Assembly (NCBI GenBank): GCA_963855995.1
Contig: OY979717.1
Coordinates: 71,621,602 to 71,685,601, forward strand
Source: Muricea muricata
Taxonomy: Eukaryota; Cnidaria; Anthozoa; Malacalcyonacea; Plexauridae
Length of the DNA stretch: 64,000 nt
Reading direction: 5' to 3'
Position numbers and translations under genes: made by a program. The notes under the pieces are model-generated. The model was not told the DNA's origin. It saw nothing but the letters and a program-made list of their open reading frames with translations, and ran no database searches. Within the stretch, counting starts at the first letter, position 1. Each line of letters begins with the position of its first letter. Below, piece by piece: positions 2,112 through 63,830 of the stretch.

Positions 2112-4288
2112 TTTTCAAACACGGGGAGTTCGAATCTGAAAAGTTGCCGCTCCCGACCCGCAGTTTTTTCATAAAATCCATTTTAATTCCACTCTTTCGA
2201 CGCGCTTCAAATAATCTCCCGCCATTTTGAATTCTTTAATATTGCGTTTGCAATCGCTCAGAATGGTGATTATTCCGTCCCAGATCCCTCAACTCGCGGT
2301 AAATTGTCATTGTAACAGATGGAATTGCTAAAATCATTAATTTTGTAAACACATGGCTCCTTACAAAGCTGCTAGTCATGTTTGTGTGTGTGAAGTCCAT
2401 TTCCACGGCAAGGATAGAGAAATTAGAAAGGATATTAGCAAAAATTTTTGAGACATAATAAAGCAGTGCTTACATACGTCTTTATCATAAACAGAACTCG
2501 CAGAAGTCTACTATTCAGACAAGTTTACTATAATACAAGTAACCTTTAATGAGAGAGCTAAAGCCATCCTTGCCAATGCTGGACGAAAACGTTTGTAATA
2601 CGAAAGCAACGGACAAATTCATTCTATTTCCAGTTCTGAAAAAGGTAATAGATTAATTGCCCTTATCCATCTTCAAATGTTTTTCCCTAAATTTGCTCAA
2701 TTTGTAAATGGCCTGGGGCTTTAGAGATCACAGATATGACATTTCCATCTGGCTTTTTTCAATCTGGGTTACCTTGAATGGAAGTTGTCACAATGCAACA
2801 TGGTATCTCAGACAGCAACTATTAAAAGCGATTTCTGATTTCGGGGATAATGTAATGATAAAAGTATAACAATAGCATGCTTTTCATTTCCAGCATAGAA
2901 CTGTAGAGCTGCTACTGGTTTTTTCTGACGCAAAAAAAAACCCCTCGATTATTTTGATAAACAGGAACAAGACGCCTGCTAGAGGTTTCACTTCGCCTGC
3001 CAAGAGTAGAAGAAAATGTGCACAAGGGACACCAACAATTCCCTTTTAAAATCAGTTGTTATTAGGGTCAATTGTGTATGTGATTCTAATGTAACACATA
3101 GGTTGGAAACATGTTGGAAACACCTCTCACTTCTAGATAATTTCCAGGAAAATTTAATTAGGCATTAACTGCTGCAATAACACTACATTGTAAAAATGAT
3201 ATTCGGTACACTATTTTGTCACCTTGTTTATATATATTGAACAGGCATTGTTTACATATATTGAGCAGCCTCTTACTGAAATTAATGGTCACTTAATGAG
3301 CTATAAATTGTGTCTCTTTTATGGGAGGTTTGGATGAAAACCCCCTTTATTGAAGATTGTTCTGTCGGTTTATTTTCAACTTAGGTTGATAAGTGTTTTA
3401 GTGCATCTTACTGTTGGTGTTTCAGACCTTACGTTTCTTGTGCACTGAAGTAACTGGACGCATTGAAGACAATATATATTTTATTTGTAGTTCTAATAAT
3501 ATTATTGGAAAGTGAGGGACAAAACATTTAAAACAGAAGTTTCAAGCGTTACCGCTTCATGAATACATGAAAACAATTGTTGCAAAACTTTCTGATATTT
3601 AAAAATTGTCAACTAATTATTTATCCTGGGAGGTTATGTACAGTTAATGAATGCATGATGATGAAGGTGGACTATTATTGATTTTACCTATTTTTGGCCA
3701 AAGGCAACATTTTTGCTGCAGTTGTACTCTCAGTTGTGCTCTCAAGCACAACATTGCTGATAACTTATTATTAGTTATAGTTTCCTGGTTGTCCGATGCT
3801 TTCCTCTGACAAACGTTTTCGACCAGCATTGGCAAGGGTGGTTTTAGGTCTCTCAAGCTTACTTATATTACCTGAATCGTCGACTTCTGTGAGTTTTTTA
3901 TATGATGAAAATAGGTTTAAGCACTGTTTTCTTATGTCTCAATAATGTTTGCTAATATATCCCTTTTGGTAGCTCTTTTATTTCTGCATTCGCCGTGGAA
4001 ATGGACTTCACACACACAAACATGACTAGCAGCTTTGTAAAAGCCATGTGTTTACAAAGTGAATGATTTTAAGAATTCCATCGGCTAGAATGACAATTTA
4101 CCGCGAGTTGAGGGATCTGGGACAGAATAATCACCATTCTGAGCGATTGCAAACGGAATATTGAAGAATTCAAAATGGCGGGAGATTATTTGAAGCGTGT
4201 TGAAAGAGTGAGAATTAAAATGGATTTTATGAAAAAACTGCGGGTCAGAGGAGCGGCAACTTTTCAGATTCGAACTCCCCGTGTTTGA
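2112..4288. mobile_element. Non-autonomous inverted-repeat transposon, 2.2 kb
   Basis: The ends are long inverted repeats: ~2,112-2,420 matches the reverse complement of ~3,985-4,288 with few differences (for example TTTTCAAACACGGGGAGTTC at the left end, and a CACACACA-rich block at the inner end). The ~1.5 kb between them has no credible coding sequence. It is inserted in a LINE ORF2. I could not fix an exact target duplication, so the superfamily is unknown. Confidence 0.75.
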
Positions 4289-4494
4289 AAATTATTCTCA
4301 AAGCACATTTTTGTATTCGTTCAATGTCCTTAGCAAGATATTGTGGTAAGGCACTATGAAATAGCGTATTCCAGAACCGACCTTATGCAACTACAATAAA
4401 ACTTGACCAATTCTACTTTAGCCACATCAGCACGTTTGAGTTGCTTCAAAAGATACAGACGTTTTGTTGCCTTTGAGTTAATTACATAATTATA
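4289..4494 (-). pseudogene. LINE reverse transcriptase fragment (part 1 of split copy)
   Basis: The reverse strand reads 'KATKRLYLLKQLKRADVAKV' and then 'ELVKFYCSCIRSVLEYA', the thumb region of CR1/L2-like reverse transcriptases, with a frame change near its end. The 2.2 kb inverted-repeat element and then the C-terminal piece at 1,861-2,111 follow in the reading direction. It is a dead copy. Confidence 0.7.
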
Positions 4495-7032: not shown

Positions 7033-7039
7033 ATTTTAC
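7033..7039. repeat. Target site duplication, left (ATTTTAC)
   Basis: The 7 bp immediately outside the left terminus equals the 7 bp outside the right terminus at 18,680-18,686. Confidence 0.85.
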
Positions 7040-7240
7040 CATAGGGAGCCCATGCGTCGAGATAGACTGATATTTGTTTTATTTGATTTTATATATTTGC
7101 TTCCCTTAAAAATACCAACGAAAAAGCGCTATAATATATTTAATTTTATATTATATTTACATTTCGCATTGTCGGAATATTGCATACTTCATTTAACTAT
7201 AACATAGTGTGTTACCGACGGCAAGCCGAGCATATGCCGA
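7040..7240 (+). repeat. Left terminal inverted repeat of P-like transposon
   Basis: About 200 bp match the reverse complement of 18,478-18,679 with only scattered differences. At the inner end an 11 bp unit (GCATATGCCGA) is duplicated only on this side. Confidence 0.9.
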
Positions 7241-9581
7241 GCATATGCCGAAATTAATACTTAACCGTTATCGTTATTTTAAAAGAGGCGCGTGCGCGGT
7301 TGGTTATATAAAAAGTGAGAAGGGATGAAACTCTAAGTGTTAATTGTATGATGAATGCCCCGACTTAAGTGGACCGATAATTATGCAATGGGTGATGTAT
7401 CGAATCAATTATGCCGTGAACCACTAGGAATAATTACGGTAGCAATAATATAAACAAAGAAACAAGCTCAACTACAACTCGTGGAGAGAAGTCAATTGGT
7501 GTCGATCGTAACGGTTCTGATGTTGTCCAGTGGTAAGAATCTGAATATATTTCGAATAGATAGATAAAGTAAAACACATGTATTTTATTTTTACGGTAAT
7601 AAAAGGTTTGCTTTTTTATTTTCACTTCTGTCTTCTGATAGGATTTTACAAAGTTATTCAGCAGTGCCAAATCAATATGTAGTTGTTGAAGACCTGATGC
7701 AGCATTATTTAAAAGATGGTCCATCCAAGAAAAATTCATGTCCTTCCCACTATGAAATATGCCGTATCGTTAAACGGATTTTCCCGATAATTAAAGAATC
7801 GAAGACAAGGCAAAAGGACGTATTAAAACGTAAGAAGTTGTATATCAACATAGCGCGTAATGGCATCTTGCAAAATTTTCCTGTCAGTTTGCTGTCGTTT
7901 GAATATGTAAAGAATATTTACCAACCAAAACACGGATTTTACTGAAGTGCACAAAGTCGTACAGGTGCAAAAGCCCTATTCGTTCATGTGAATTGCCGTC
8001 ACAGATGTGGTGGAAATCCAGTTGTTATCGAACTGACAATTCATGGCGATTTAGATTTTCAGGTCAACATAGCTGGAAAGAGAGTGGCAACATACAACCA
8101 CCTTTCACGTCTAGTGAGTGTAAGAGATTTAGATAACTTAATGCTTTTGATATCTCTGAGTGATTTGTGCAGGGGTTTCGTATCATCGTCAGAAAGGGTA
8201 TCAAGAGATGCCAATGGTCAGACGACATGTGTTTGCCAGCGCTGGTCCAGTGACCAGAACAATACATGCGAAAATCGTCACCAATCTTTATGTTGTAAGA
8301 GACTTATTCACATATCAAAAAAATCATTGATATGCAGTAGTTGCAATACAATTAGAGAAAACTGGCACAAAATTCTGCGTGTTAATCCCGTCAGAGTGCA
8401 ATCGAACGGGAATCTTAAGAGAAAGAGAAGAGAAGATACGATGGACAGGACAGAACTTGTTCAGAAACTCAAGGAAGAAAGAAGGCTGAAGAACAACGCT
8501 TTACGACGTGAAACATATCTGCGAAAAAAGATCAATGAAGGAATGCTGATGTTTGATGATGAAGATAGTGATGATTTCACCAAAATATTCAAAAAAGTTG
8601 GGGAAGATAAAGTACCAGAGAATTCTAAATTAATGTGGAAGGAGCAGGCAAAGGCACTTTCCGTCAAAGGATCTTCTGGTAACAGATGGCACCCTATGCA
8701 AGTATAACCCAATTTATGTTAATATTGTAATACTGGTATTGTTTCTCATATTGTAAGCCTGTATCAAAGAAACTCGTTTCTCCCAGGCATACAGTAAAAA
8801 AACTTACAATATGCAAGTTATTAGAAGACTTATGTTTGAAGCATGGCCAATAGTAACCGTGTAAGTTTGCAAGATCAAGACCTCCTGGATTCCCTTTCCT
8901 GAATACCTTGTTTACTGTGGCTATAAACATTAAGAAGTACACTACATAAGTTCTGGAATGATGCAATATTCAGTACTTTATGTACATCTGCGAGGTTGAA
9001 GTGGGGGCAACTTGTGTTTGACATATTGTTTGTATGACATATGTGTTTGTGATGTTTACATGTAATTTACATTTGCTTATAAACTTACTACTACAATATA
9101 ATTCTAGGGTTATTCGATTGTGCCTGTCTGTTTGGAACAGGAGCCCAGAGGCTTATAGCGAACTTTCTCAAAGTGGCATGATTAAACTTCCATCTGGAAG
9201 ACTTCTTCAGTATTACAAGAATGCTATACCCCAGCATGAAGGTTTTAATGAAGATGTTCTTCACTGGATGGAACAAGAAGCAACTAAAAGGAAACTGTCT
9301 AAAGAAGGAAAATGTGGGGGCATCATTTTAGATGAAATATCAATACAGGCATACAAAAGTAATGTATATTATGATGTAAATGGTTTTGTTTAATCCATTG
9401 AACCGCATAGCCTCTCTTAGTTGCACAGTAAAATTGTCTGGTATTGGATGAAGTAAGAAGAAATAAGTAGGGCACATTGCAGCTCAAATTGGGTTAAGCA
9501 ATGTGTGCATAAGGTGGTTAATTATTATATATTATGGTATCAGATTAATAACTAATTAGGGTTAGCTGTTGAGGCATTTTT

Positions 9582-9725
9582 AATTGGTCTTTTTACTGGA
9601 TTGTTGAGTCTAATAAATTTGTATATTAAATGTATCCCAAGTAGTATTTTACCATTAAAATACTACTTGGGATACATTTAATATACAAATTTATTAGACT
9701 CAACAATCCAGTAAAAAGATCAATT
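9582..9725. repeat. 144 bp near-perfect hairpin (foldback MITE)
   Basis: Arms 9,582-9,651 and 9,656-9,725 are reverse complements over 70 bp with a single mismatch, around a 4-base loop (CCAT). It lies in an intron of the transposase gene. The near-perfect match implies a recent insertion or a constrained hairpin; transcribed, it would give a long stem like a MITE-derived small-RNA precursor. Confidence 0.85.
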
Positions 9726-10782
9726 AGTGTGTATAATTTCATACCTTGTATATGTCTCTTATTTTGAATGTATGTCTTTGCTGTGACTTGTAATACTTTG
9801 CAAGATGTGTCACTCTTTTGAACATACAATGGATCAAACAAACTTGTTGGTTTTGTTTCCCTTGGTCAAGAAAATGATGACATTGAAGAATTGTGCACCA
9901 AAGGTATGTACAGTAACTCAAAAATAAGTATGACTTATTACTAATTGTTTATGCAATTACACTGCACTTGTTAATTATGAATTGTCTGGCAATTAAAGCT
10001 TGTTTTAACTACAATTAAAAAAGTTGTCACGTATAACTATATTCTATATTTTGTTCCGATAGGAAGTGATGAAGATGGAAAGGTGAAACTAGCCACTCAC
10101 GTACTTCAATTTGTGTTTCTTGGCCACACATGATTCAGGTTTCCTTTCGCTCACTGGCCAACCACAGAAGCAAGTGCAACAAGTTTATATACTCACTTCT
10201 GGAAAGCTGTTTATTGGCTATTGCAAGGTGGTTTCATAGTTCATTATTGTTGTTGTGATGGTGGAAGTGCAAATCGTTCATTTGTTAAGTTACACTTCAA
10301 AGACAAAGACCCATGCACAGAGAAGTTTACAACTGTAAATCCATACACTGGAGGCCAACTTGTGTTTATACTAGACCCTTATGTAAGTTTATTACACTAT
10401 ACGCTCTATTTCAAACAAAATTATTGTGTATTTTACCATCTTGGATATTCATATCTGTCGTTGCACTGGATATATGCATGACATATCACAACAAGGGTTA
10501 AATTATTTTGTATCTTTAAAGAGTCTGGTGATTCTTATAATAAATCAGATACTAATTTACTCCTTTCTCATCTAAATCAGAGAATTTTTAAATTTTTAAA
10601 GACTTCATAAAACTTATATAATACATATTATACTGTATCCTTTAATGGCCGATAGTTTCAGCAAATATAAGACTAAAGTAATTCCGAACAAAGTGTGCAT
10701 AATTAGACTTTACACAATTAAATACTGTATACTCGAAACTATACAGTATTTAATTGTGTAAAGTCTAATTATGCACACTTTA

Positions 10783-12346
10783 CACTGCGTGCCAAAATTA
10801 TATGCAAATTGATATTTTTGCTCTAACGCCGACAGTTTTCAACAAAAATTCGCCATACTTGGCACGTTATATGGCAATACTAACAAATGCGCAGATCTAA
10901 AATTTTAAGGTGATCTGCGCAATAGTAAACAAACGGCAGCTATTTTGGTGACCTCTAGTCTATTTGAGCGTGCCAAGTTTATATGCAAATCATTGTTAAA
11001 GTGTCAAATGTGGCGAAGTGATGATGGAAAATTAAAACATGGATTAGATTAGAAATATGTAATTTGAAAACAACAATAATACAGAGCAAATATCGTCAAT
11101 ATGGTTTCATAGTACAATCAATATGGTATATAATTGCCATTTTTATGGATCAGAGAAAAAAGTCTTTGGTCCATCGAAGATGTCAAACTTTCGATGTCAT
11201 CTGATGAAATGTCTTTGGCAGCAGTCAGAACGGCATTCCAGAGGTCGTCCTTGGAAGTGTACTGCCTCCCATCAGAGTAAAGCTTCCGTTTCAGGATGCT
11301 CCACAGATTTTCAGTGGGATTCAAGTTTGGAGAACAGGCTGGCCATTGCATAATTTCCCCATGCCTCGCAAAAGCACTCTGCAAATATTTGGTGGTAAGC
11401 CTTGCAGCATGAGATGAGGCATTATCATGCACAAATACCATCTTTTTCCGGAATGACAAATTCTTCTTCTTGTGCCAGGGTACGAGGTGCTCCTTAATGA
11501 AGTCAATATAAAGTTTGGCAGTCATTTTCACTCCATCTACAACTCTGAATAACCCTACCAGCTCGTTTCCAATGATTGCCGCCGAAAACATCACACCACC
11601 ACCTTCTTGCTGACGCCTGATCCGGTGGGGACGTGGACCCTCCTTGCAATACCATCCTCTCCTCCATCCATCGGGTCCATCAAGGGTCGCTCGACGCTCG
11701 TCGGTGAACAAAACTGTTTGAAAATTGACTTTCATGTGATTTTTTGCCCACTCCATCCTCTTTTTCTTATGGACATCCTGTAATGGTGGGCGAACCTCTG
11801 GTTTTCCACATTTTGCAACATTCCTCAGGATACGGCATCGAGTTGATTTGGGCACATCAGGGACATCGGCATTTTCAAAAACTCTTTGCTAGTTCCAAGA
11901 GGGTTACGGCGGAGTTCTCTCTTGATTCTACTCATGGCTCGATGCGAAACAGGTGCTTTCTTACGAATTTTCCCTTTGTCAGAAAGTCCGTTGCAAAGTT
12001 TAGGGTTAGTCCCAATTTTTTTAATGGTACGATGATCACGGTCCAATTCTTTGCTCATTTTTAAGGTAGATATGTTATCATAAAGCCTTTGAATAATTTT
12101 AGATTTCTCAGCTTGACTCAAAGCTCCTCTACGTCCCATCTCGCATATAAAGTTGGCACATTGCATCAGACTAGAAATCATCAAAATGGCTGCCGTTTGT
12201 TTACTATTGCACAGATCAACTTAAAATTTTAGATCTGCGCATGTGTTAGTGTTGCCATATAACGCGCCACGTTTCGCGAATTTGTATTGAAAGCTATTCG
12301 AGTTTGAGCAAAAATATCGATTTGCATATAATTCTGGCACGCAGTG
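10783..12346 (-). mobile_element. Tc1-like transposon, 1.56 kb
   Basis: TIRs begin CACTGCGTGCCAAAATTATA and end in the complement, flanked by TA (10,781-10,782 and 12,347-12,348), the target site of the Tc1/mariner superfamily. Internal inverted blocks (AGATCTGCGCA and GTTTGTTTACTATTG types) extend the repeats to ~200 bp per side. It carries one reverse-strand transposase gene and is nested in a MITE, inside an intron of the P-like transposon. Confidence 0.9.
11118..12139 (-). pseudogene. Tc1-like transposase, one frameshift
   Basis: DDE transposase of the Tc1/mariner family. The start at 12,139 (MGRRGALSQAEKSKIIQRL) leads into paired helix-turn-helix domains. Near 11,840 the frame shifts and the catalytic half follows: 'TVLFTDERRATLDGPDGW' (first Asp), 'KMVFVHDNASSHAA' (second Asp) and 'SPNLNPTENLWSILK' (Glu). 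It ends with the family's usual short tail at 11,118. Apart from one frame break it is full length, so this is a recent arrival. The frameshift could also be a sequence error. Confidence 0.88.
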
Positions 12347-13901
12347 TATTCGGAATTACTTTAGTCTTATTTTATACTGTATTTGTAGTTTTACAGCATC
12401 TACCCAAGTTGTGACATTATATTACATATAATTAGATCTAATCATAAAACAAGATGGCAAATAGCAGGATCTTTTTGTCTCAAATATTAACAATCTCAAC
12501 ATTCTTTTCAAATTCCATCTCCCTTTAAAAGTAATAATATCTGACTTATATAAACTTTAAATATCAAAAGCTTTCTAGTACCTATCTGTGTATCTGTATG
12601 TATTGTGAAAAAATGCCAGTTTCATACAAAAAATATGCAGAGTGAAAAATATCAGACATACTGATATTTTTTATTCAATATATTTTCAATATTGCAGCAG
12701 CATATTTAGGTATTAATTAGTAATTGTGTACAGTTTATAATTTTAAAGCATAATTTCAAGAAATTGAGGAACAACATAGAGAAGAGTCAAAATGGAGGGA
12801 CACGATTACCAATGGTCTTTTTTCAAGGATGCATATGACTGGGATCAAAGAAACAGTTCATTGACCATTCATGAGAGGTTAACTGAAAAGCATTTTGTAC
12901 TAGGTTATGCCTGCAAAATGCGAAATCATCTAGCTATCGATGTGTTAAACAAGCGTATGCTTTTCTTGATGGAGGTATAAAAAATCAATTATAAATGCAC
13001 AATTTGTGTTACGTCTTGCATGGAGTCAGATTCTACCTGTTCTTAAGGAAAATTTCTAAAGACTAAGAATTAATTTTGTGTTTGTTATAAATAACTAATT
13101 ATAAATAACTTTTTTAAAACCTGTTGAGCTGCAACGTGCCCCATTGCACCCGAAGCTCTGCAGCTTATATAATGGGGTTAATCAAAATGTGTGACAATGT
13201 TTCCTGTTGACACATTGAGCTGCAGAAAAATATGCCCCAGTGTGCCCTACTTATTTCTATTTGATACTTGTCAAGTGCCAGATGATTTTACTCATCAATG
13301 GGAAAGCACTGCAGCCTAATTAGATTTTAATATTTGTGTAGGCATACAGAAATTCTGTTAATGAAGATTGTGCACTGAAGTTAAAAATGACGGTTGATTT
13401 GCTTGAAGCTTCAAGCACCATGATTGAAGTGTTTGAAGACCCAAAGCCAATTACTAGCACTGATGATAGCCGACTTCGTCAGCTTGATGTTCCTCTTGCC
13501 TGGTTCACGAAGTGGAAAGAATCTGTCATGTCCAAGGCATATGCACCAGGAATTACAGGCAAAATGCTTTTGTCAGATAAGTTACGCTTTGATTTATCGT
13601 CAATGGTTTTAGGCTTCAAGAGCCTCTGTGAAGTAGTTATTGCTAAAAGTGGATCTATTGTACCAGCAACAACCAACAGTAATATTGTTGAAAATATCTT
13701 TTGCCAGCAACGAGGACACAACGGCCAAAATACAAATCCTAATTATTACCAGTATTGTCACACAATGAATGGGATTATTCTTGGACAGCAAACCACCACA
13801 AAAAAATGTAATACAGGAAGTGTTACAAGTTTTCCATTTTTTGTTAATGAGAAGCTGGTGAGAAAATGAACATTAAACACATACTTACAGTAGAATAAAA
13901 A

Positions 13902-16750
13902 TTACTTTGATTTGAACCTTTTATGCCAATCTAATACTTGTTTTTCCGAAACATCAAATTGAATGGCCCTTTCTGCTGATGTCGACCTGTAATCCTGCTC
14001 GTGATCACATTTAAGGATTTCAAGTTCGCTTGGTGTCGGTCTAAATCTCTTTCTGGTAATTATTGCTTTGGGGTGGGTAGTGGTAGTAGCTGTTGATGTG
14101 CATGGTTCTGCGTTGTCACCTGAAATATAAAATAATAAAATATTTGTGCAGTATAGGCATGTGTAGTATTTCTGTAATAATTACCATACATGGGGAGATT
14201 ATTACGAAAGTCAGCAAATTATACAATTATCAGTACTACAAGCCAGAAAATATTTATTGTTTTCGTACCTTCTTGATTTTTCACAATTGTGCTTGAGTTT
14301 GAACTGACACGTTGTGGGAAACCGCGTATTTTGTGGATTGCCTTTTTTAGAGCTTCAGCAAGTATTTTTTTGCTGGAACTGGAATTGTAAACAATGCCGT
14401 ACAGATCAAGCAGCATTTTTAATTCATCCTTTTTGTTAACTCTGGATTCGAAAATATGTGGGAGTTTAGCAATCATTGCTTTCAACAAGATATGCGAGGT
14501 ATGCCGCATGTTGCTGTTATCATTAAGGATGGTATCTATATCAACTTTTCCACCTTTCAACTCTTGTTTCTTTGATTTTAGTAGTACTTTCTTTCTATGG
14601 GCTTCAGTTTTTTGTAATTGTGTGTCTCTTCGGACATTTCTCAAAAACTGTGCTCCAGCCATGTTCATGCAGTGTTCTATTATATCTTCATATATCTTAT
14701 ATAGTGTCACAGTAGCTGTGTCTGCAGGGAACAAATCTAACCACTTAGATCTTAGACTGTCAGATCCCTTCAACTCGTTGGTAGTTTTTTTCTAGTACGT
14801 CACTTTTAAATTGTTTAAGTTTTGCCATGTTTAGTAATGTCACCCGTTTCTCTTCAATCTCCAATGCAAGAAGGTAAACGTCATCTCTGATTGAGGTAAG
14901 TCCCCTATTTCTGAACTGTCTAGATTCAGTGACGGTTAATGTTTCTGCATATTGTGAGTCTTTCCCTAATACATCAGACGATGTGGTTAATGATCCTAAT
15001 AACTTCTTTTCCATGTAACAATTAAATGACGACGATCGTACGGATGGATTTGTTGAGCACATCTTAGACCTCATGTCTGCTCTACATTTATTTCGTTGTT
15101 TTGCAATAGCCCAGGCCATGCAGTATCTTATTTTACCCCTACTCTCTGCTGGCATTTCTTTAACACTGACATGATTCATGCTTTCCTGAGGAGATGAACT
15201 TTCAGGGTCTTTTGTTTCTACGATTTTATGAATGATAAATGTCTTGATTCCACTTAAGATTTCAGTTTTTAAGCAAAGATGGGCTACGGATAACTGCTCA
15301 GGTACAGTGCTTAGAACTGACGCAAATTCGACTGTGACGTTGTTGCTTGTAAACAATGTATGCATCTCGCCAAAAAGGGATGACATTTTTTTCTTTCTAC
15401 CTTATGTTCATTCTCTGCAAGCATACAGTCTTTAATCTTTTCATATATACGGTTCCACTGGACTCTTAAAAACTTTTGAAATATTTCAAAACAATCAGTT
15501 GACATGAGAATGTCAATAGCAGCATTAATATCATTGACCAATAGTCTATTTTCATTCTTTGCCACCCTTAATGAATTCATTCTTCGTACTAAAGTCATCA
15601 CTTGGACTTGCCAAATCATCCCTACAATCAAGATCTTCAAGCAGTTCATCCAAGTCAATGATGTTAGTACTGCGTAATTCAGGACTGCAATCTTCATGAA
15701 AAAAAGAACTAATCACTTTTCTATCTCATTATCTTCATCCTCTGAAATATCAGATATGTTAGATATTTGTTCCCGAGTTGACTGATTTTGTTGCTGTAAA
15801 ATACACTCATCATCATACTCTGACTTGCAACAACACTGTGTAGAAGCTAATACACATGCATTAGATGACTGTGCTTTGTCATAAAAGTCTTCAACAATCT
15901 TGGGTGGTTTTATCATGTTGGCATTATTAAATCAAACCAATGAAAGACCAGATGGGTCTTTTGCTCTAGAAATTGCAACATACATTTGTCCACTAGTAAA
16001 CTCGTTACCACAATGGACTTCCAAGCAAGGTAGCGTCATTCCCTGAGATTTGTGGGCAGTAATAGCCCAGCAGAGCTTAAGTGGAATCTGAGTTCTTGTT
16101 CCAATGAGTTTGATAGGATCATCTTTATCTTTCACTGATAGTGTGACAGGCTCAACAGTCATTGTGGCAACATTGTCAAATTTAACCATAGGGAAGTTAT
16201 CAGTTGAAAAGCTTGTCACAATTCCAGTCAAACCATTCACAAGTTCTTTGCTGAGGGTTGTAACTAGCATCACCTTAGCTCCAACCTTTAGTTGCAATAC
16301 TTGGGAAAGGGTCAGATATCTAGAAATTGTAAAATAAATAAGTGTTTAAGCTTAAAAAATATAAAAACTGTGATAACATGTCAACAGTATATTTATGGTG
16401 CATTCTGATCAACTTGTGTCTTCCTGGAAATTATATATTATTAAAAACTGCACACTGAATTCAATATTCTTCAAGAGGACAATATAAATATATTTTATAA
16501 TAGTCGATTATGTTGTATGTAATAGTAATAGGCCATTCCATTTAATGTCTGCACCCCCCCCCCTGTGGATGAGGTTTTCTGAGGGGTTGCTTGAAAGCAA
16601 CTTCTGGAGGGTTATGACTGCAGGCGCCCTTTGATCTTTGCAATTTTTCTGAGGGGTAAGGTGAAAAATTCCAAATTTCTGAGGGGTATTTTGTCTCCGC
16701 ACTTTGATCTTTCTTTCTGAATGGTTAAAAATTTTTAAAGCTCATCCACA

Positions 16751-16791
<41 letters not shown>

Positions 16792-17999
16792 TGCGTGCGT
16801 GCGTGCACACGTGCGCGCGTGCGTGCGCACGTGCGCGCGTGCGTGTGTGTGTGCATGCGTGCGCATGCGTGCGCGTGCTTGCGTGCGTGTGTGAATATTA
16901 AACGGAATGCCCGAATACTATGTAGTTTCATTACAATACAATCATGAATGAGTGTTCTTCTTGACCTGCAACTAATCTTTTTGGCACACCAGACAATATT
17001 GCTTAAGTCGCCCACACTTACTGGTGTCCACAAATACTGTACCATTGATAAAATATTCTGTTGTGCCATACCGCAAACATGGCCAAGTGAAGAATTTGAG
17101 AGGTGTGATTTGCCAGTGATTTAATAGAGAAATTATGGCGTGCGAAATGTCTATATCAAATACCGGTACTGCATTTACAATATCTAATATCCTACCTGCT
17201 TAAAACATTTTTATTTCCAACGTCACATGCCTTTCTTACATACATTTCACCAAGAAGTGGCTCTAATTTCTCAAAGTTGTAATAATCCACATCGTCATTG
17301 AGTTGATATATTCTAACAACATGGTCTACCCCAAAGTTTTTTGAATCAACAGGCCTTGCCAGGGCTTTTGCAAATTATCTGCTCGTAGAGATACAGCGAC
17401 CAATTCTTATTTCATTTAGAAATTATATAAAGTCGTCATCATGCTGTCTCTCTATTTTATCCAGAATAAAAGTATGAGGGAATACTTTGTTCCACACGCG
17501 ACTGGTAAATGCAAAATTTCTGGCGTCGTCGTTCATTGGGTTTGGTACCGGAGGGAGCTGATAAAAATCCCCGGACCCTATGACCTGAATTCCACCGAAA
17601 TGATGCGTCTTTTCTCGTAACGTTCTTGCAATAAATTCAATTGAGTCAAATACCTTGTTGCTTAACATAGAAACCTCGTCAATCATCAGAAGGTCTACAT
17701 TTTTCCATCGTTCAACAGCATCGCTGTTACGTTTCACTTCCTCTAGTAGCAAATAAGACGAGCTTCTGCCTTCTTTAATACCGACGAATGAATGTAATGT
17801 TGTTGGTTTAAGATAACTTAGAAGATTCTGGCACGCAATTCCTGTCGTGCATGTGAAAAAAATTTTTTTGCTCGATTTAAAAAAGTTGTGAATATGTGCC
17901 AACAAAAATGTTTTTCCTGTGCCAGCATTGCCTGTTACAAAAGCATTATGACCTTGCAAAATGACATCGAACGCTTGTTGTTGATCCACATTCAAAGCC
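13902..17999 (-). pseudogene. PIF1-like helicase with C-terminal homeodomain-like exon
   Basis: Second gene of the P-like transposon. Exon ~17,999-17,196 carries the helicase N-terminus: Walker A 'GNAGTGKTFLL', Walker B 'LLMIDEVSML' and 'IGSGDFYQLPP'. A ~0.9 kb intron follows. Exon 16,319-14,269 carries the helicase C-terminus ('ITAHKSQGMTL', 'YVAISRAKDPSGL') and then about 500 residues of charged, Ser-rich and helical sequence of unknown role. Exon 14,119-13,902, joined in phase, ends with a homeodomain-like block ('RKRFRPTPSELEIL', then 'VSEKQVLDWHKRFKSK'). Frame breaks near 17,425, 15,715, 15,580, 15,385 and 14,765, and stops near 17,350 and 15,930, make this copy a pseudogene. PIF1 enzymes unwind DNA 5' to 3'; here it may aid excision-gap repair or copying. 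A promoter-side exon above 18,000 may exist (18,267-18,500). Confidence 0.75.
16751..16893. repeat. (GT)n / GTGC alternating repeat, Z-DNA-prone
   Basis: About 140 bp of strictly alternating purine-pyrimidine sequence (GTGTGT, then GCGTGCGTGCGC and similar). It lies in the intron of the helicase gene. Open frames across it are artefacts of the repeat. Confidence 0.9.
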
Positions 18000-18477
18000 C
18001 TATATGTAATGTAAAACCGCTAAATATGTAATATGATATTACTCGACCATAATTGGATACATACTTACATAATGATTTTAAATTTTTTTCCCAAAAAATG
18101 GCTTTGTGTATAAGTTTAATCTGGTAAAGTATTTACATAATTCTGCGAAAATTGTGCATAATTTAATTTTAACGTTCTTAAAATTGACCCCCCCCCCCGT
18201 CTGAGTTTAGAATTAACTACATTAGGTCCAGTCAAGTCGGGGCATTCATGCAAGGAAAAGTCGCGATTAAAAACTATAGCAATTTAAAGAGTCCGTGGGT
18301 TTTATTTCACAAAATTTTTTAGTAGGTATATGCTTTAGCCTAAGACATATCATGCAGCCGAATTTCAAGGTCAAATTCGTTTTAACTAGCATATATGGCT
18401 TCAAACGAAAAAACATTTTCGTATTACAGTTTCGTCCCTTGTCATTTTTCTTATTTACAGCGCGTGCAAAATATTCA

Positions 18478-18679
18478 TTCGGCATATGCTCGGCTTGCCG
18501 TCGGTAACACACTATGTTATAGTTAAATGAAGTATGCAATATTCCGAAAATGCGAAATGTAAATATAATATAAAATTAAATATATTATAGCGCTTTTTCG
18601 TTGGTATTTTTAAGGTAAGCAAATATATAAAATCAAATAAAACAAATATCAGTCTATCTCGATGCATGGGCTCCCTATG
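18478..18679 (-). repeat. Right terminal inverted repeat of P-like transposon
   Basis: Reverse complement of 7,040-7,240; ends ...GGGCTCCCTATG and is followed by the second ATTTTAC (18,680-18,686). Confidence 0.9.
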
Positions 18680-18686
18680 ATTTTAC

Positions 18687-55797: not shown

Positions 55798-56553
55798 ATG
55801 CCCGGGGCAAACTGCTCTATTTTTGGTTGCGGAACTAATAGAAGACATAGGGGAGTCGGGATCTTTAAGATTCCAGCTGGAAAAGACGAGAAATCAAAAG
55901 AAATTCATGACGCATGGAGAAAGGTCATAACACGAGATCGTGTTGTTGATGATAACTTTCGCAAGAAAATCGATTCTGGCAGCGTTTATGTATGCGAGAG
56001 ACATTTTAAGAAAGAAGAAATCGAATGTCGTGAGTATTAAGCTATGATCTTTGCTTATTTATATTATTTTCAAACCAGAATAAACCAAGTCGAGCGGGAG
56101 GTCATGTCGCATATCAAACAATGCTTCGTTGTTGACACATGAATGACTCGTGAATATTAAATCTTGACACCAGCTTGATTTAAATAGTCCGATTATTTAA
56201 ATTAGATTCTTTTAGATATATTATAACATTGTTTCGAAAATTTCATAATAATATTATTCAGAGTTTGTGTATTTTTTTACAGCTGGTAAACGTAAACGCC
56301 TTGTTGTTGGGGCTGTTCCTACACAAAACCTGCCAATAAAAAGCATTTCCCCTTCTCCCGTTACAACGAGACGAGAACTTGTGCGACCTGAATTACCAGT
56401 AGCCGTACCTGTAGTTTACAGAAACATTGAACAGTTCAAGAAAAAGATTTTGGCGTTGAAATTACGCGGATGGTCTAAGACTGAGAGCAATGATGTTAGT
56501 AATGATGTGCTATTTAAACTGTTCGACCAAACCCATGTCTTACCAAAATTGCC

Positions 56554-58135
56554 CTAGCGTGTAGATTCTGGGTACCAAATTTGGTTCTGAAAGAGTACGC
56601 ATCCATATTAGCTGTACCTGTAACATCATTAATTAACTCGTGCTTAAATGAACAAACCTTCCCCCAGATATGGAAGAGTGCAGATGTCACGACAATTCCA
56701 AAAAATTCGCAAGTGGAAACAATATCTAATGATCTTAGGCCAATATCTTTAACTCCCACTTTATCGAAGATCGCAGAAGGCTACATAGTTCATGTTCATG
56801 TTAAACCACCAGTACTAGAACAAATTGGAAAAGACCAGTATGAATGTGTACCGCACTCTTCCACTTCTCATGCACTAATTAACATGATACATCAATGGAC
56901 TAAAGCGACAGATGGCACCGGTGCCAGTGTTAGAGTATTTGTTTTGAACTATAAAAAGGCATTCGATTTGATTGACCGCAACATCTTCATCAGTAAGTTG
57001 TCCAAGTACAAAATTAACCCATTCGTTGTAAATTGGATTTGTGACTTCCTAAGTAATCGACATCAGAGAGTCAAACTTGCTGAAGATGGTTTTTCGGAGT
57101 GGAAAACTGTCCCAGCAGGAGTACCTCAAGGTACAAAGTTATGACCGTGGCTATTTATCATAATGATAAATGATTTGGAAGTAACCTCAAGCGATGGAGT
57201 TTTTGAATATGTCGATGATACGACTACACACGAAGTTGTAAAAAAAGGAGAAAACAGCCAAGCACAAACACTACTTGATGAAATCAATGATTGGCCAATT
57301 GCAAATAAATTTCAGCTGCATCCTCAAAAATGTAAAGAACTGCAGATTTCCTTTACCCGTGATGATGTAAGTCATGATGATGTATTAATCGATCAATCTA
57401 CCTTAAACATCGTGGAATCAGTTAAAATTCTTGGAGTTACTATCCAGAATAACTTTAAATGGAGCTTGCATATTAAGGATACGGTTAAGAAAGCCTCTAA
57501 AAGGTTATACTTTTTGAAGCAGTTGAAGCGGGCAAAATTATCAACAGAAGAGTTAGTTAAATTTTATGTTACATGCATTCAATCTGTTATTCTTTATGCA
57601 TGTCAAGTCTATCACTACAGTATTCCGGAATACCTGAGCAAATCACTCGAACGTGTACAAAGGAGAGCTTTGCGTATAATATATGGATACGACTATTCTT
57701 ATAAGGAATTATTAAGTCAATCAAAACTTACAACCCTCTCGGAACGAAGATCGGACCTCTGTAGTAAATTTTCTGATAAGATTATGTCTGACCCTCAAAA
57801 CAACTTGCATAAATTACTTCCGTTTAACGAAGACAGTCAGTCTTATGATTTACGAAGGAAAGGACGTTTTTACCCACCCAAGTGTGCAACGAATAGACAC
57901 CAAAAAACTTTTATCGTATCGGCATCACAAGAATTTAATATAAATTTAAAAACTATATAGATGTAGATCTTTATGATATTAAAATATTTAATATTATTAA
58001 TTAGAAGAACTCTTTAATTTGGCAGTTTTTAGTTACTTTTATTGCTAAAAGGTAAATATCTGATATTCAGTAAATGCTGTAAATGAGATTATTTTTAATA
58101 AACCATCTATCTATCTAAACCATCTATCTATCTAT
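56554..58135 (+). pseudogene. CR1/L2-like non-LTR retrotransposon, 5' truncated
   Basis: Reverse transcriptase and C-terminal domain: 'NDLRPISLTPTLSKIAEGYI', 'NYKKAFDLIDRNIFISKLSK' (motif A), 'VPAGVPQGTKL' and, after one TGA (57,142-57,144, where a Gly is expected), 'PWLFIIMINDLEV' and 'YVDDTTTHEVV' (catalytic Asp pair). The C-terminal part reads 'LKQLKRAKLSTEELVKFYVT' to the stop at 57,958. The 3' end is an (ATCT)n-type tail at ~58,100-58,135. It has a single nonsense codon and few other breaks, so it is a rather young insertion, inside the THAP gene. Confidence 0.85.
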
Positions 58136-59959: not shown

Positions 59960-61788
59960 AAAGCAACGTCTTCTCTGCAATCAACTCCAGTATCGTTTGA
60001 CAGACCTAGAAAAGGAAATTTCTAAAAACAGCATTTCTGTTGATAAGACGTTTGAGAAAGATATATTCTCTATCATGGCTGATTGCAGTGATGAAGATGT
60101 TTCACCTCACATGAAATTTTTCTGGGAGCAGCAGGGAAAGTTACTCCAAACACCTACTTTTGGTCGTCGTTACCATCCCCACCTCATCCGCTATTGTTTA
60201 TCCCTTCATGCTAAGTCATCTGCAGTGTATCGCGAATTACGGGACTCTAAAGTCTTAGTTCTTCCAAGTGAAAGGACATTAAGGGATTATCGTAATTTTT
60301 TCAAACCACAACAAGGTTTTAATTCAGATAATATTGAAAGACTTAAGGACATGAAAAATGGATACTTTGACATTCAGAGGTATGTGGTCATTGCGTTTGA
60401 TGAGATGAAGATCCAGTCAAAATTAGTCTTCAACAAATTTACCAATGAACTCACTGGATTTGTTGACCTGGGGGAAAAGGAACTGAATACAAGCAGTTTT
60501 GGTAGTCATGAGCTGGCTACTCATGCTCTTGTATTTTTTGTTCGAGGTACTGCAACTGACCTGAAGTATTCTCTGGCCTACTTCTTGACCAAAGATGTTA
60601 CATCATACCAGATTATGCCTCTTTTTTGGAAGTCTGCATCTGTGTTGGAACTGGTATGTAACCTGTGGGTTTGTGCAGCAGTGTGTGATGGTGCCTCCCC
60701 AAATCATCTGTATTTTCAACTCCATCCTGGTGTAGCTAACACAGAAATAGACAGTGTTATAAATTGGACATGCAATGTCTTTGCACCTGACAGAGAAATT
60801 TATTTTTTTTCTGACCCCCCTCATTTGGTGAAAACAGCCAGGAACTGTTTGTTCAACTCAGGTAGTGGGAAGTGGACTCGCTACATGTGGAACAATGAGA
60901 AATATATGCTGTGGGACCACATTGCTCAATTATATTTTTCTAATCTTGATTGTGGTTTACACCAGTTGCCGAAGTTGACAGCTGATCACATCAATTTGAA
61001 ATCATTTTCGAAGATGAAAGTTAGCTATGCTGTCCAGGTGTTAAGTAACACTGTTTCTGAAGCCCTCCATTGTCATTACCCATCTGGCGAAGAAGATGAA
61101 ACCGCCAAATTCTGCAAAATGATGAATGGCTTTTTTGACTGTGCAAATGTCCGATCCTCCACAGAGTCCTTACGAAAGCGCAATGATTTTCTGGCTCCCT
61201 ATCGTCACACAAATGATGAGCGGTTCAAATGGTTAGAAGACACCTTCATTAAATACTTGGAGGATTGGAAAGCGGCAGTTAATTCAAAAGAAGGGCAATA
61301 TAACCCTGATGAAAAAGGCCGGATGTTTCTAAGTTTGCAAACCTTCCAGGGCTTGAAGATGTCGGTGAGTTCGCTAATTGGGGTTGTCAAGTATCTTCTT
61401 GAGCAAGGTTTTGAATTTGTCTTGACAGAGCGATTCTGTCAAAATGACCTTGAAGAGTACTTTGGTTACCAACGAGCTCAGGGCAGGAGAAGTGACAACC
61501 CATCTGCTGCTGAATTTGGGTACAACGACATGCGAATTGCTGTTTGGAGGGATATAGCTCCATCAACAGTTGAAGGTAACGTTGCAGGGAGGCATTATGG
61601 GAAGCGTCAAAAGTGGTTCAGTGTCAGTGATGAACCTTTGCCAAAACGAAAATCGAGCGAAAAGCAATCGAAAGAATAAACTATAAATGGTAACACTTTT
61701 TGCCTGTAATAATATTTTGTTGATAATTGTAAAAATTGCGATGGACAATAAGTGGTAATTCTTTACAATATAATAAAATGCATAAGGT

Positions 61789-61951: not shown

Positions 61952-62189
61952 ATGCACTTTATCATATTGTAAAGAACTATCATGTATTACATTGCATTGA
62001 TTATGGTAGCACAAAAATTGATTTTCCTATTCACCTGACCACAAACAAAGTGAGTAAACCAATTGCCAATACTTGAAATGTTGATTGTATTAAGTAAATG
62101 ACTAATAATGTAACTAAAATTAAGATTTTTAACAATCACTAAATGGTATGATTTTTGGCTACTATATACAATATATATATATAGTTGCG

Positions 62190-63830
62190 GGACTGATTAA
62201 GTTCGGCGAATTTTGTACAATGCCACGTCCGTATTCGGACGATTTACGCTGGCAAATGGTATACCAAAAACTTTTTTTGAGAAGAGCTATGAAGAAATTG
62301 CGTTGCAACTATTTGTTAGTCCAAAGACTGAGTATCGGACGAATAGCACGTTAGTGATACCTTGTTGATATTACTGATATTTTGGCTGCTGTTAACACGC
62401 TTGCAAAGACAGCGTGTGTATACATAGTCTACTGAGGTTACAGCAAAAATAAACTCGTGCAACGTTTGTTTCAAAATTTGCTCATGTTTTAAACAATTTG
62501 TTCAAATGTAACCAGCATGTTGCATATATGCCTGACAGTCAGAAGGATGTTATTTTCACAAATGCATTCCAGATAAGTGGGCAAGGACCTCGTACAGCTT
62601 GTAAAACTGAATCATTCTGTCGCAAGTAGTGCTTAACTTTGGCGAAAACCTCTTCAATCCGGTTCAAATCGGGACTGTATGGTGGCAAAAAACGGATAAG
62701 CGCTCCAGAATCATAAACATGCTCCACAACTTCTTGGACATGATGTGCTGGGTGGTTATCTGTTGGGAAAGCTACGAGCGCCTTTTACTAGCAATGAATC
62801 GATTTAATGGGGAAAACCCGCGATCTGTTATTTATTGTAATGCGTAAGAATTAATTGTGCAAATTTAGCAAGCCAGCGTCACCAGAGCCGTCCTATTGCA
62901 TGTAGTAATATTCGGGTAAATAATTTGGATTAAGGAGAGCGAGCATAAAATCTTTTCTTTGGATTTTTCAATAACCAATTGGCAATAAGTCCTTCACTTG
63001 AAATAGCGGAAATTGCAAAATAATGAGGTGCCCTGCGTGAATAGCTATAATCCCTCACGACTGGGTCCTTCAAGTGAAATAAGTATTTTCAGAAGTTTTT
63101 TACAACAACGTGACTTTGAAGTATACTGTACATACAATGCCTGTTTCATCGAGAAAGACGAGTTGGTTCGGATTAAGTACGCTGATTTCTGCTTTGAATT
63201 GTAGCCTTAGATTATCATTTCGCTGAAGAGAAATTCGGTGTATTTAAAAGCAAATGCTTCGTAAATTTTGTACTGAACATAACAATACAAATTTTGAAGG
63301 TGAGTTGAAAGATTCATTGAAGGTTTAAGATTGAAACAATAGTGTGATGCATTCAGTGTTGTGTATATTTCTGCGCATTTTTAGCTGATATATACTGAAT
63401 ATTATTAATGGCAGTGATGTGCTTGTGTATACCTTCTTACGCGTTATTCCAAGTCTATACACAGCTCCACACTGCAGTGTCCTCGGGCCAAACGCAGAAC
63501 CAGTAGCGTTGGAAACATAATTTGCTATTTCGTGTAGCTGCATCTGACGCGAACGAAGCAAGCAATCCATGATAATATACTCTTCATGGGGAAATAAAGT
63601 TATAATCCCAGTTGGGCGACCGAGACAGCAAAGCTTTACATCACCCGTATTTAAAAACGTGCTAATCGTCCGATATACAGTCTTTGGACTAACAAATAAT
63701 AGCAATGCAATTTTTTCATAGCTCTTCTCAAAAAAATTTTTGGTATACCATTCGCCAGCGTAAATCGTCCGAATACGGACGTGGCATTGTACAAAATTCG
63801 CCGAACTTAAGCAGTCTCGCAACTAGCACA
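62190..63830 (-). pseudogene. IS630/Tc1-like transposon with inverted copy of its own 5' end
   Basis: Reverse-strand transposase remnant: N-terminus near 63,784 (MPRPYSDDLRW) with a frame break in a T run at ~63,737, then a helix-turn-helix region ('LLFVSPKTVYRTISTFLNTG'), 'LVFLDETGI' near 63,150 (first Asp) and 'PPYSPDLNRIEEVFAKVKHY' near 62,680 (Glu). Stops and frame breaks between them make it dead. At the left, 62,190-62,345 is an inverted copy of ~63,655-63,815 and repeats the coding start (MPRPYSDDLRWQM) in + orientation. So the inverted repeat includes coding sequence, either as a very long TIR or through a fold-back rearrangement. Confidence 0.75.

Follow-up and report, generated by a model that had tools for sequence, protein, structure and literature searches.

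An 11.6-kb element with two convergent genes

The window analysed here, a 64,000-nucleotide stretch of Muricea muricata DNA (contig OY979717.1), contains an 11.6-kb transposon at positions 7040–18679, inside which lie two genes, a transposase on the forward strand and a PIF1 helicase on the reverse strand. The two genes converge, their reading frames ending 32 bases apart, and each of them is broken in this copy. The features of the element, and those of a second P-type transposase elsewhere in the window, are as follows; the catalytic roles of the D, D and E residues are presumed from invariant alignment columns and general knowledge.

7033–7039, no strand: left target-site duplication (TSD), ATTTTAC
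7040–7240, + strand: left terminal inverted repeat (TIR), begins CATAGGGAGCCC
7655–8695, + strand: transposase N-terminal part with a Cys-rich stretch and one in-frame stop (tblastn with P0011/P0010; translation)
9094–9348, + strand: transposase segment ending at the first presumed catalytic Asp (LDEIS)
9828–10382, + strand: transposase segment with the second presumed catalytic Asp (CDGGSANR), interrupted
10781–12348, – strand: nested Tc1-like element (DDE_3), outside the two-gene system (inverted repeat; Pfam DDE_3 E 2.2e-16)
12749–12974, + strand: transposase segment LTEKHF...KMRNHLA, one frame change
13342–13869, + strand: transposase terminal exon with the presumed catalytic Glu (NIVENIFCQQRG)
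13902–14119, – strand: helicase last exon, a short basic C-terminal module (RKRFRPT...WHKRFKSK), at most helix-turn-helix-like
14269–16319, – strand: helicase exon with the PIF1 2B and C-terminal motifs and an extension of ~500 residues; frames broken
16320–17195, – strand: helicase intron with a GT/GC repeat
17196–17999, – strand: helicase exon with the PIF1 motor domain, Walker A GNAGTGKT and Walker B LLMIDEVSM (Pfam PIF1 E 1.2e-36); two in-frame stops in its last third
18479–18679, – strand: right TIR
18680–18686, no strand: right TSD, ATTTTAC
55798–56022, + strand: THAP exon of the second P-type transposase (THAP 2.7e-8)
59961–61673, + strand: largely open catalytic part of the second P-type transposase

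The TIRs are 201 nt long and 99% complementary, and their terminal 16-mer (allowing up to three mismatches) is found at only two places in the window, which are the two ends of the element (0.10 expected); the 7-bp duplication ATTTTAC lies on either side. The initial annotation had described a decayed, P-like transposon bounded by TIRs and TSDs, and this description is borne out, the decay being visible in the helicase, which has in-frame stops and changes of frame. A hairpin at 9581–9726 (71-nt arms, 99% complementary, 4-nt loop) lies between two of the transposase segments.

The helicase belongs to the PIF1 family, having both the motor with its Walker A and B motifs (the reverse-strand open reading frame 17423–18019 matches PF05970) and the 2B domain (15932–16345 on the same strand matches Pif1_2B_dom, PF21530, with E 6e-8), as had been proposed from the Walker motifs. 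With splice sites placed by eye from the sequence, its three exons (17999–17196, 16319–14269 and 14119–13902) could be joined in phase, in agreement with the earlier reading of an in-phase splice to a last exon, which reads as quoted there. The ~500-residue extension, previously noted as a stretch of no recognisable kind, is real and conserved: with the read-through protein as query, eight database proteins match it at E ≤ 0.001, with 81% identity along 99% of the stretch in the best case and coverage of 57% in the weakest. A further search from the relative P0005 listed 19 proteins, 15 of them new, and two of the new ones are nearly full-length open frames of 993 (P0065) and 999 residues with PIF1 motors (P0065 matches PF05970 with E 1.6e-31). 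Among five helicase relatives identity is 46–73% in the extension and 63–81% in the motor. In Pfam nothing matches the extension above threshold, and a sequence search of it against the PDB gave two matches, both chance. In the A1 structure model (mean pLDDT 57) the part beyond the motor is largely helical; the model has 22 structure matches at E ≤ 0.001, all of them PIF1 structures; from this low-confidence model no known fold can be named for the extension. The motor of the relative P0006 resembles cellular PIF1 far more than it does Helraiser, the sole Helitron structure among the matches listed for it (1.3e-52 against yeast PIF1 structures and ~3e-44 against human ones, versus 1.3e-11 for Helraiser). 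No relative was confirmed in viral contigs, searched with the extension, or in prokaryote genome contigs. The viral helicase relatives (best 80 of 201 in a scan with the whole helicase alignment) were set aside; all of them align inside residues 1–214 of the 714 of P0001 and thus involve the motor, at most its edge.

Fifty-six relatives of the transposase were found with its read-through translation as query, in the coral Oculina patagonica (60% identical), the sea anemone Actinostola, the hemichordate Ptychodera flava and the clam Tegillarca among others, and none was confirmed in viral contigs or prokaryote genome contigs. The window segments are 52–84% identical to P0009 and 29–71% identical to P0010, and the D, D and E columns are invariant in the transposase alignment. 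All 16 of the aligned relatives examined match PF21787, the P-type catalytic domain (best 4.6e-19; the window pieces alone fall below threshold), and three of the 16 also match the GTP-binding insertion domain PF21788. The TNP-like RNase H catalytic domain with D-D-E places the gene in the P superfamily in its broad sense. THAP is not among the 19 families listed for the 16 relatives, and the 81 residues scanned of the window transposase's N-terminal part match no Pfam domain, THAP included. Six of the 16 relatives (e.g., P0014 and P0025) match RFX_DNA_binding at some level (best 3.3e-6), at the N-terminus, the place of THAP in studied P elements. An RFX-type N-terminus was considered for the window transposase and rejected, with no match to RFX_DNA_binding or THAP in the window piece or in its tree neighbours P0010, P0011, P0012 and P0036.

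Judged from these sequence features, the element's transposase is P-type (TNP-like, with a DDE RNase H domain) and differs from the window's other, THAP-carrying P transposase. In a tree of 44 of the 56 relatives (those longer than 600 residues) and the two window transposases, the THAP-carrying one lies far off from the helicase-linked one. The two labels used in the tree are not clades, since P0039, P0042 and P0043, THAP-labelled by rank, nest on the other side, and we therefore give no support value for the split. The helicase proteins have no match near the THAP-type transposase in the window, which makes it a natural control for the finding. Between its THAP exon and the rest of the gene lie two adjacent open frames (56518–57957, + strand), one with a YVDD-like motif, that by eye look like reverse transcriptase.

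Related elements in the host genome

The initial annotation had called for a search of the host genome with the TIR for intact copies. In the 453-Mb genome this search returned a second full copy (C1:26801716–26811823), 94–98% identical to the window element in six colinear blocks, with both genes present and its own 7-bp TSD, ATGATAA. This copy is also broken, at different places from the window copy. The concern that copies of the TIR family might lack the helicase while the helicase proved to be a host gene elsewhere is answered in the negative by this copy and by the genome-wide pairing given below. Three short copies of 350–475 bp (C3:15820756–15821230, C2:15368685–15369034 and C2:7190566–7190936) hold little beyond the TIRs, being without the helicase and without the transposase too; two are flanked by exact 7-bp duplications, and in the third 6 of 7 positions agree. 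These are MITE-like derivatives of the window element.

A genome search with the last helicase exon found the two copies and four divergent loci (E 1.6e-4 to 0.042), and at all four of the latter the helicase extension and a transposase are present and convergent. Element D2b (C1:41020968–41034765), which is of a different family from the window element and a neighbour of D2a, has both genes, the TSD ATCACAC and TIRs of 2562 bp, far longer than 201 nt, that are 99.9% identical, which shows that it moved recently. The helicase of element C9 is an unbroken 982-residue frame convergent to a transposase whose exon matches include stops. Convincing TIRs were not found for D2a or D4, nor within the short spans searched at C9 and C1:85.05M. 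Where both ends of an insertion were read (eight cases), the TSD is an exact 7 bp in six and matches over 6 bp in the remaining two.

The association of the two genes was tallied across this one genome, in which some pairs may represent duplicated regions rather than separate insertions. Two queries gave 54 listed helicase loci (from the best 49 of 505 and the best 55 of 495 candidates), and all 108 scored matches to the terminal exon of the helicase-linked transposase lineage gave 64 transposase loci. A transposase of this lineage lies no more than 12 kb from the helicase at 44 of the 54 listed loci, and within 6 kb at 41 of them; about 0.18 pairs would be expected within 12 kb by chance. The nearest transposase is convergent to the helicase in every one of the 44 pairs, so that convergence holds for every pair counted, at some forty loci and in several divergent families. 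The D2b helicase lies additionally near D2a's transposase, in another orientation. Ten of the listed helicase loci are unpaired, and 20 of the 64 transposase terminal-exon loci have no listed helicase, nine of these 20 spanning less than 300 nt. For the other P-type transposases, 54 loci in number, the lists show no helicase at 6 kb or less; one of these loci is 10 kb away from a helicase that is itself paired with another transposase. These other loci are those with less than 39% identity to the two queries (best 54 of 768 and best 55 of 831 candidates), a cut that was chosen after inspection of the list and that defines the class by identity, not by THAP.

Because the second full copy has both genes, 44 of 54 listed helicases are paired and convergent, the 54 other P-type loci are without a listed helicase at 6 kb or less, and D2b moved recently, we conclude that the PIF1 helicase is an established component of this two-gene lineage of transposons and not a passenger. 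Of the earlier reading, a P-like transposon with PIF1 as its stable second gene is in this way upheld.

Possible roles of the helicase and its C-terminal module

We favour the reading, at a probability of roughly 0.7, that the element is a cut-and-paste DNA transposon with two genes, both broken in this copy, and that its helicase aids repair synthesis after excision. The transposase would excise the element and insert it by a 7-bp staggered cut, and the helicase would act at the ends of the DNA and at the donor gap, where it could drive repair synthesis through a long (10–14 kb) element and its hairpin-forming inverted repeats. Such synthesis would restore the lost copy, and copy number would rise. 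The extension may dock the helicase on the transposase or on the element ends, and the short basic tail may be an optional addition in some families. Yeast Pif1 drives D-loop synthesis in break-induced replication, and repair synthesis after excision is the job that we infer for the transposon helicase.

The main rival to the repair role is one in end processing or strand transfer, in which the helicase would act before or during strand exchange, by unwinding the ends or remodelling the transpososome. We consider this a tentative alternative. Among Academ transposons the helicase and nuclease lineages differ in TSD length, which the authors relate to the enzymes (PMC10045372), and the TSDs here are 7 bp against the 8 bp given for studied P elements (PMC7776569); TSD length may, however, simply be a property of the transposase. 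The lineage might even be partly replicative, with PIF1 driving donor-gap synthesis of the break-induced type so that a full copy is regularly left behind. We think this rather unlikely; if true, it would be an autonomous copy-and-paste outcome from a cut-and-paste transposase.

The initial annotation saw homeodomain helices 1 and 3 in the last exon and supposed that this part might bind the transposon ends. The module is present in seven of the nine elements read (the window copy, the second copy, D1, D2a, D3, D4 and C1:85.05M). These seven fall into four types, D1 and D2a being alike, as are D3 and C1:85.05M and also the window copy and the second copy, and the six modules aligned share invariant R, K, F, D, R and F residues and a final WH. 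In D2b and C9 no such module was found by reading the frames, by one pattern scan or by a genome search that also overlooked the one at C1:85.05M. In favour of a homeodomain are a WxKRxK motif in register after a VSxxQV stretch and an hhalign alignment in the expected register with a pairwise E of 0.0072; the probability of that alignment is, however, only 5.4%. HTH_23 ("Homeodomain-like") matches weakly in four of the six members (best E 0.027), whereas the Pfam homeodomain (PF00046) is not among the matches listed at E ≤ 10, with HMMER filters dropping most weak matches, and the module has no match in the PDB. Each variant was scored beside 500 shuffles against a profile built from five homeodomains: equal or better scores came from 22 shuffles for the window variant and 4 for the D1 variant, which thus beat most of them, but from 394 for D3 and 265 for D4, so that these two of the four do no better than shuffles. 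The Asn that is invariant in helix 3 of homeodomains is missing from the module. On these grounds it is improbable that the helicase ends in a true homeodomain with which it binds the ends of the transposon, and such a domain is not supported; the helicase may carry a helix-turn-helix-like tail. A model of the last exon built from the single sequence has two helices instead of three, but at a mean pLDDT of 66 it carries no weight either way.

That the helicase is merely a captured host PIF1 gene carried along is very improbable and already strongly disfavoured: gene capture by transposons is common, the window copy is broken and ten helicase loci have no listed transposase, but the same gene, extension and convergent order are kept across several divergent families, the nearest partner is convergent in all 44 pairs, and the extension has neither a Pfam match over threshold nor more than chance matches among solved structures.

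Comparison with known transposons

Like the THAP-type P elements (Drosophila P and the zebrafish P-like element), the element described here has a TNP-like RNase H transposase, TIRs and cut-and-paste insertion. Studied P elements have an N-terminal THAP domain and 8-bp TSDs (PMC7776569), whereas here no THAP was found, the TSDs are 7 bp and a second gene is present; the element is thus not a canonical THAP-type P element.

Helicases are carried by a few other transposon superfamilies. Helitrons encode a PIF1-type helicase, as does our element, but unlike them it has TIRs, a TSD and a DDE transposase. Helitrons have neither TIRs nor a TSD, and their helicase is fused to a Rep/HUH nuclease. A Helitron reading was rejected given the TIRs and TSD here and the lack of a Rep among the matches listed (ten pieces of the window were scanned, the best 25 of 36 families being listed for one of them). 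KolobokH and AcademH are helicase-bearing cut-and-paste DNA transposons with transposases of superfamilies other than P. Kolobok lineages carry RecQ, which in Kolobok-1_CCri is on the complementary strand (PMC9587614), and KolobokH thus differs from the present element, whose helicase is PIF1. Among the papers listed in full-text searches of open-access PubMed Central, no P-type transposon with PIF1 was found. Helicase-bearing DNA transposons are known as such, and it is the pairing of the P-type superfamily with PIF1 that is new within the literature searched.

The chemistry of P-type transposases is well studied, and here one lineage has a fixed PIF1 partner while the same genome holds many P-type relatives for which no helicase is listed, so that the benefit to a transposon of its own helicase becomes directly testable; we know of no test of the helicase role on such transposons. 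PIF1, a replication and repair helicase, gains an unsuspected use.

Other repeats are present in the window. Nested long inverted repeats at 2112–4291 (arms of 35–195 nt, 80–100% complementary) are probably a fold-back or MITE-like element. At 62182–63825 two inverted repeats, one of 96 nt (96% complementary) and one of 86 nt (91%), have their arms ~1.4 kb apart, and a 165-residue reverse-strand frame overlaps the right arms.
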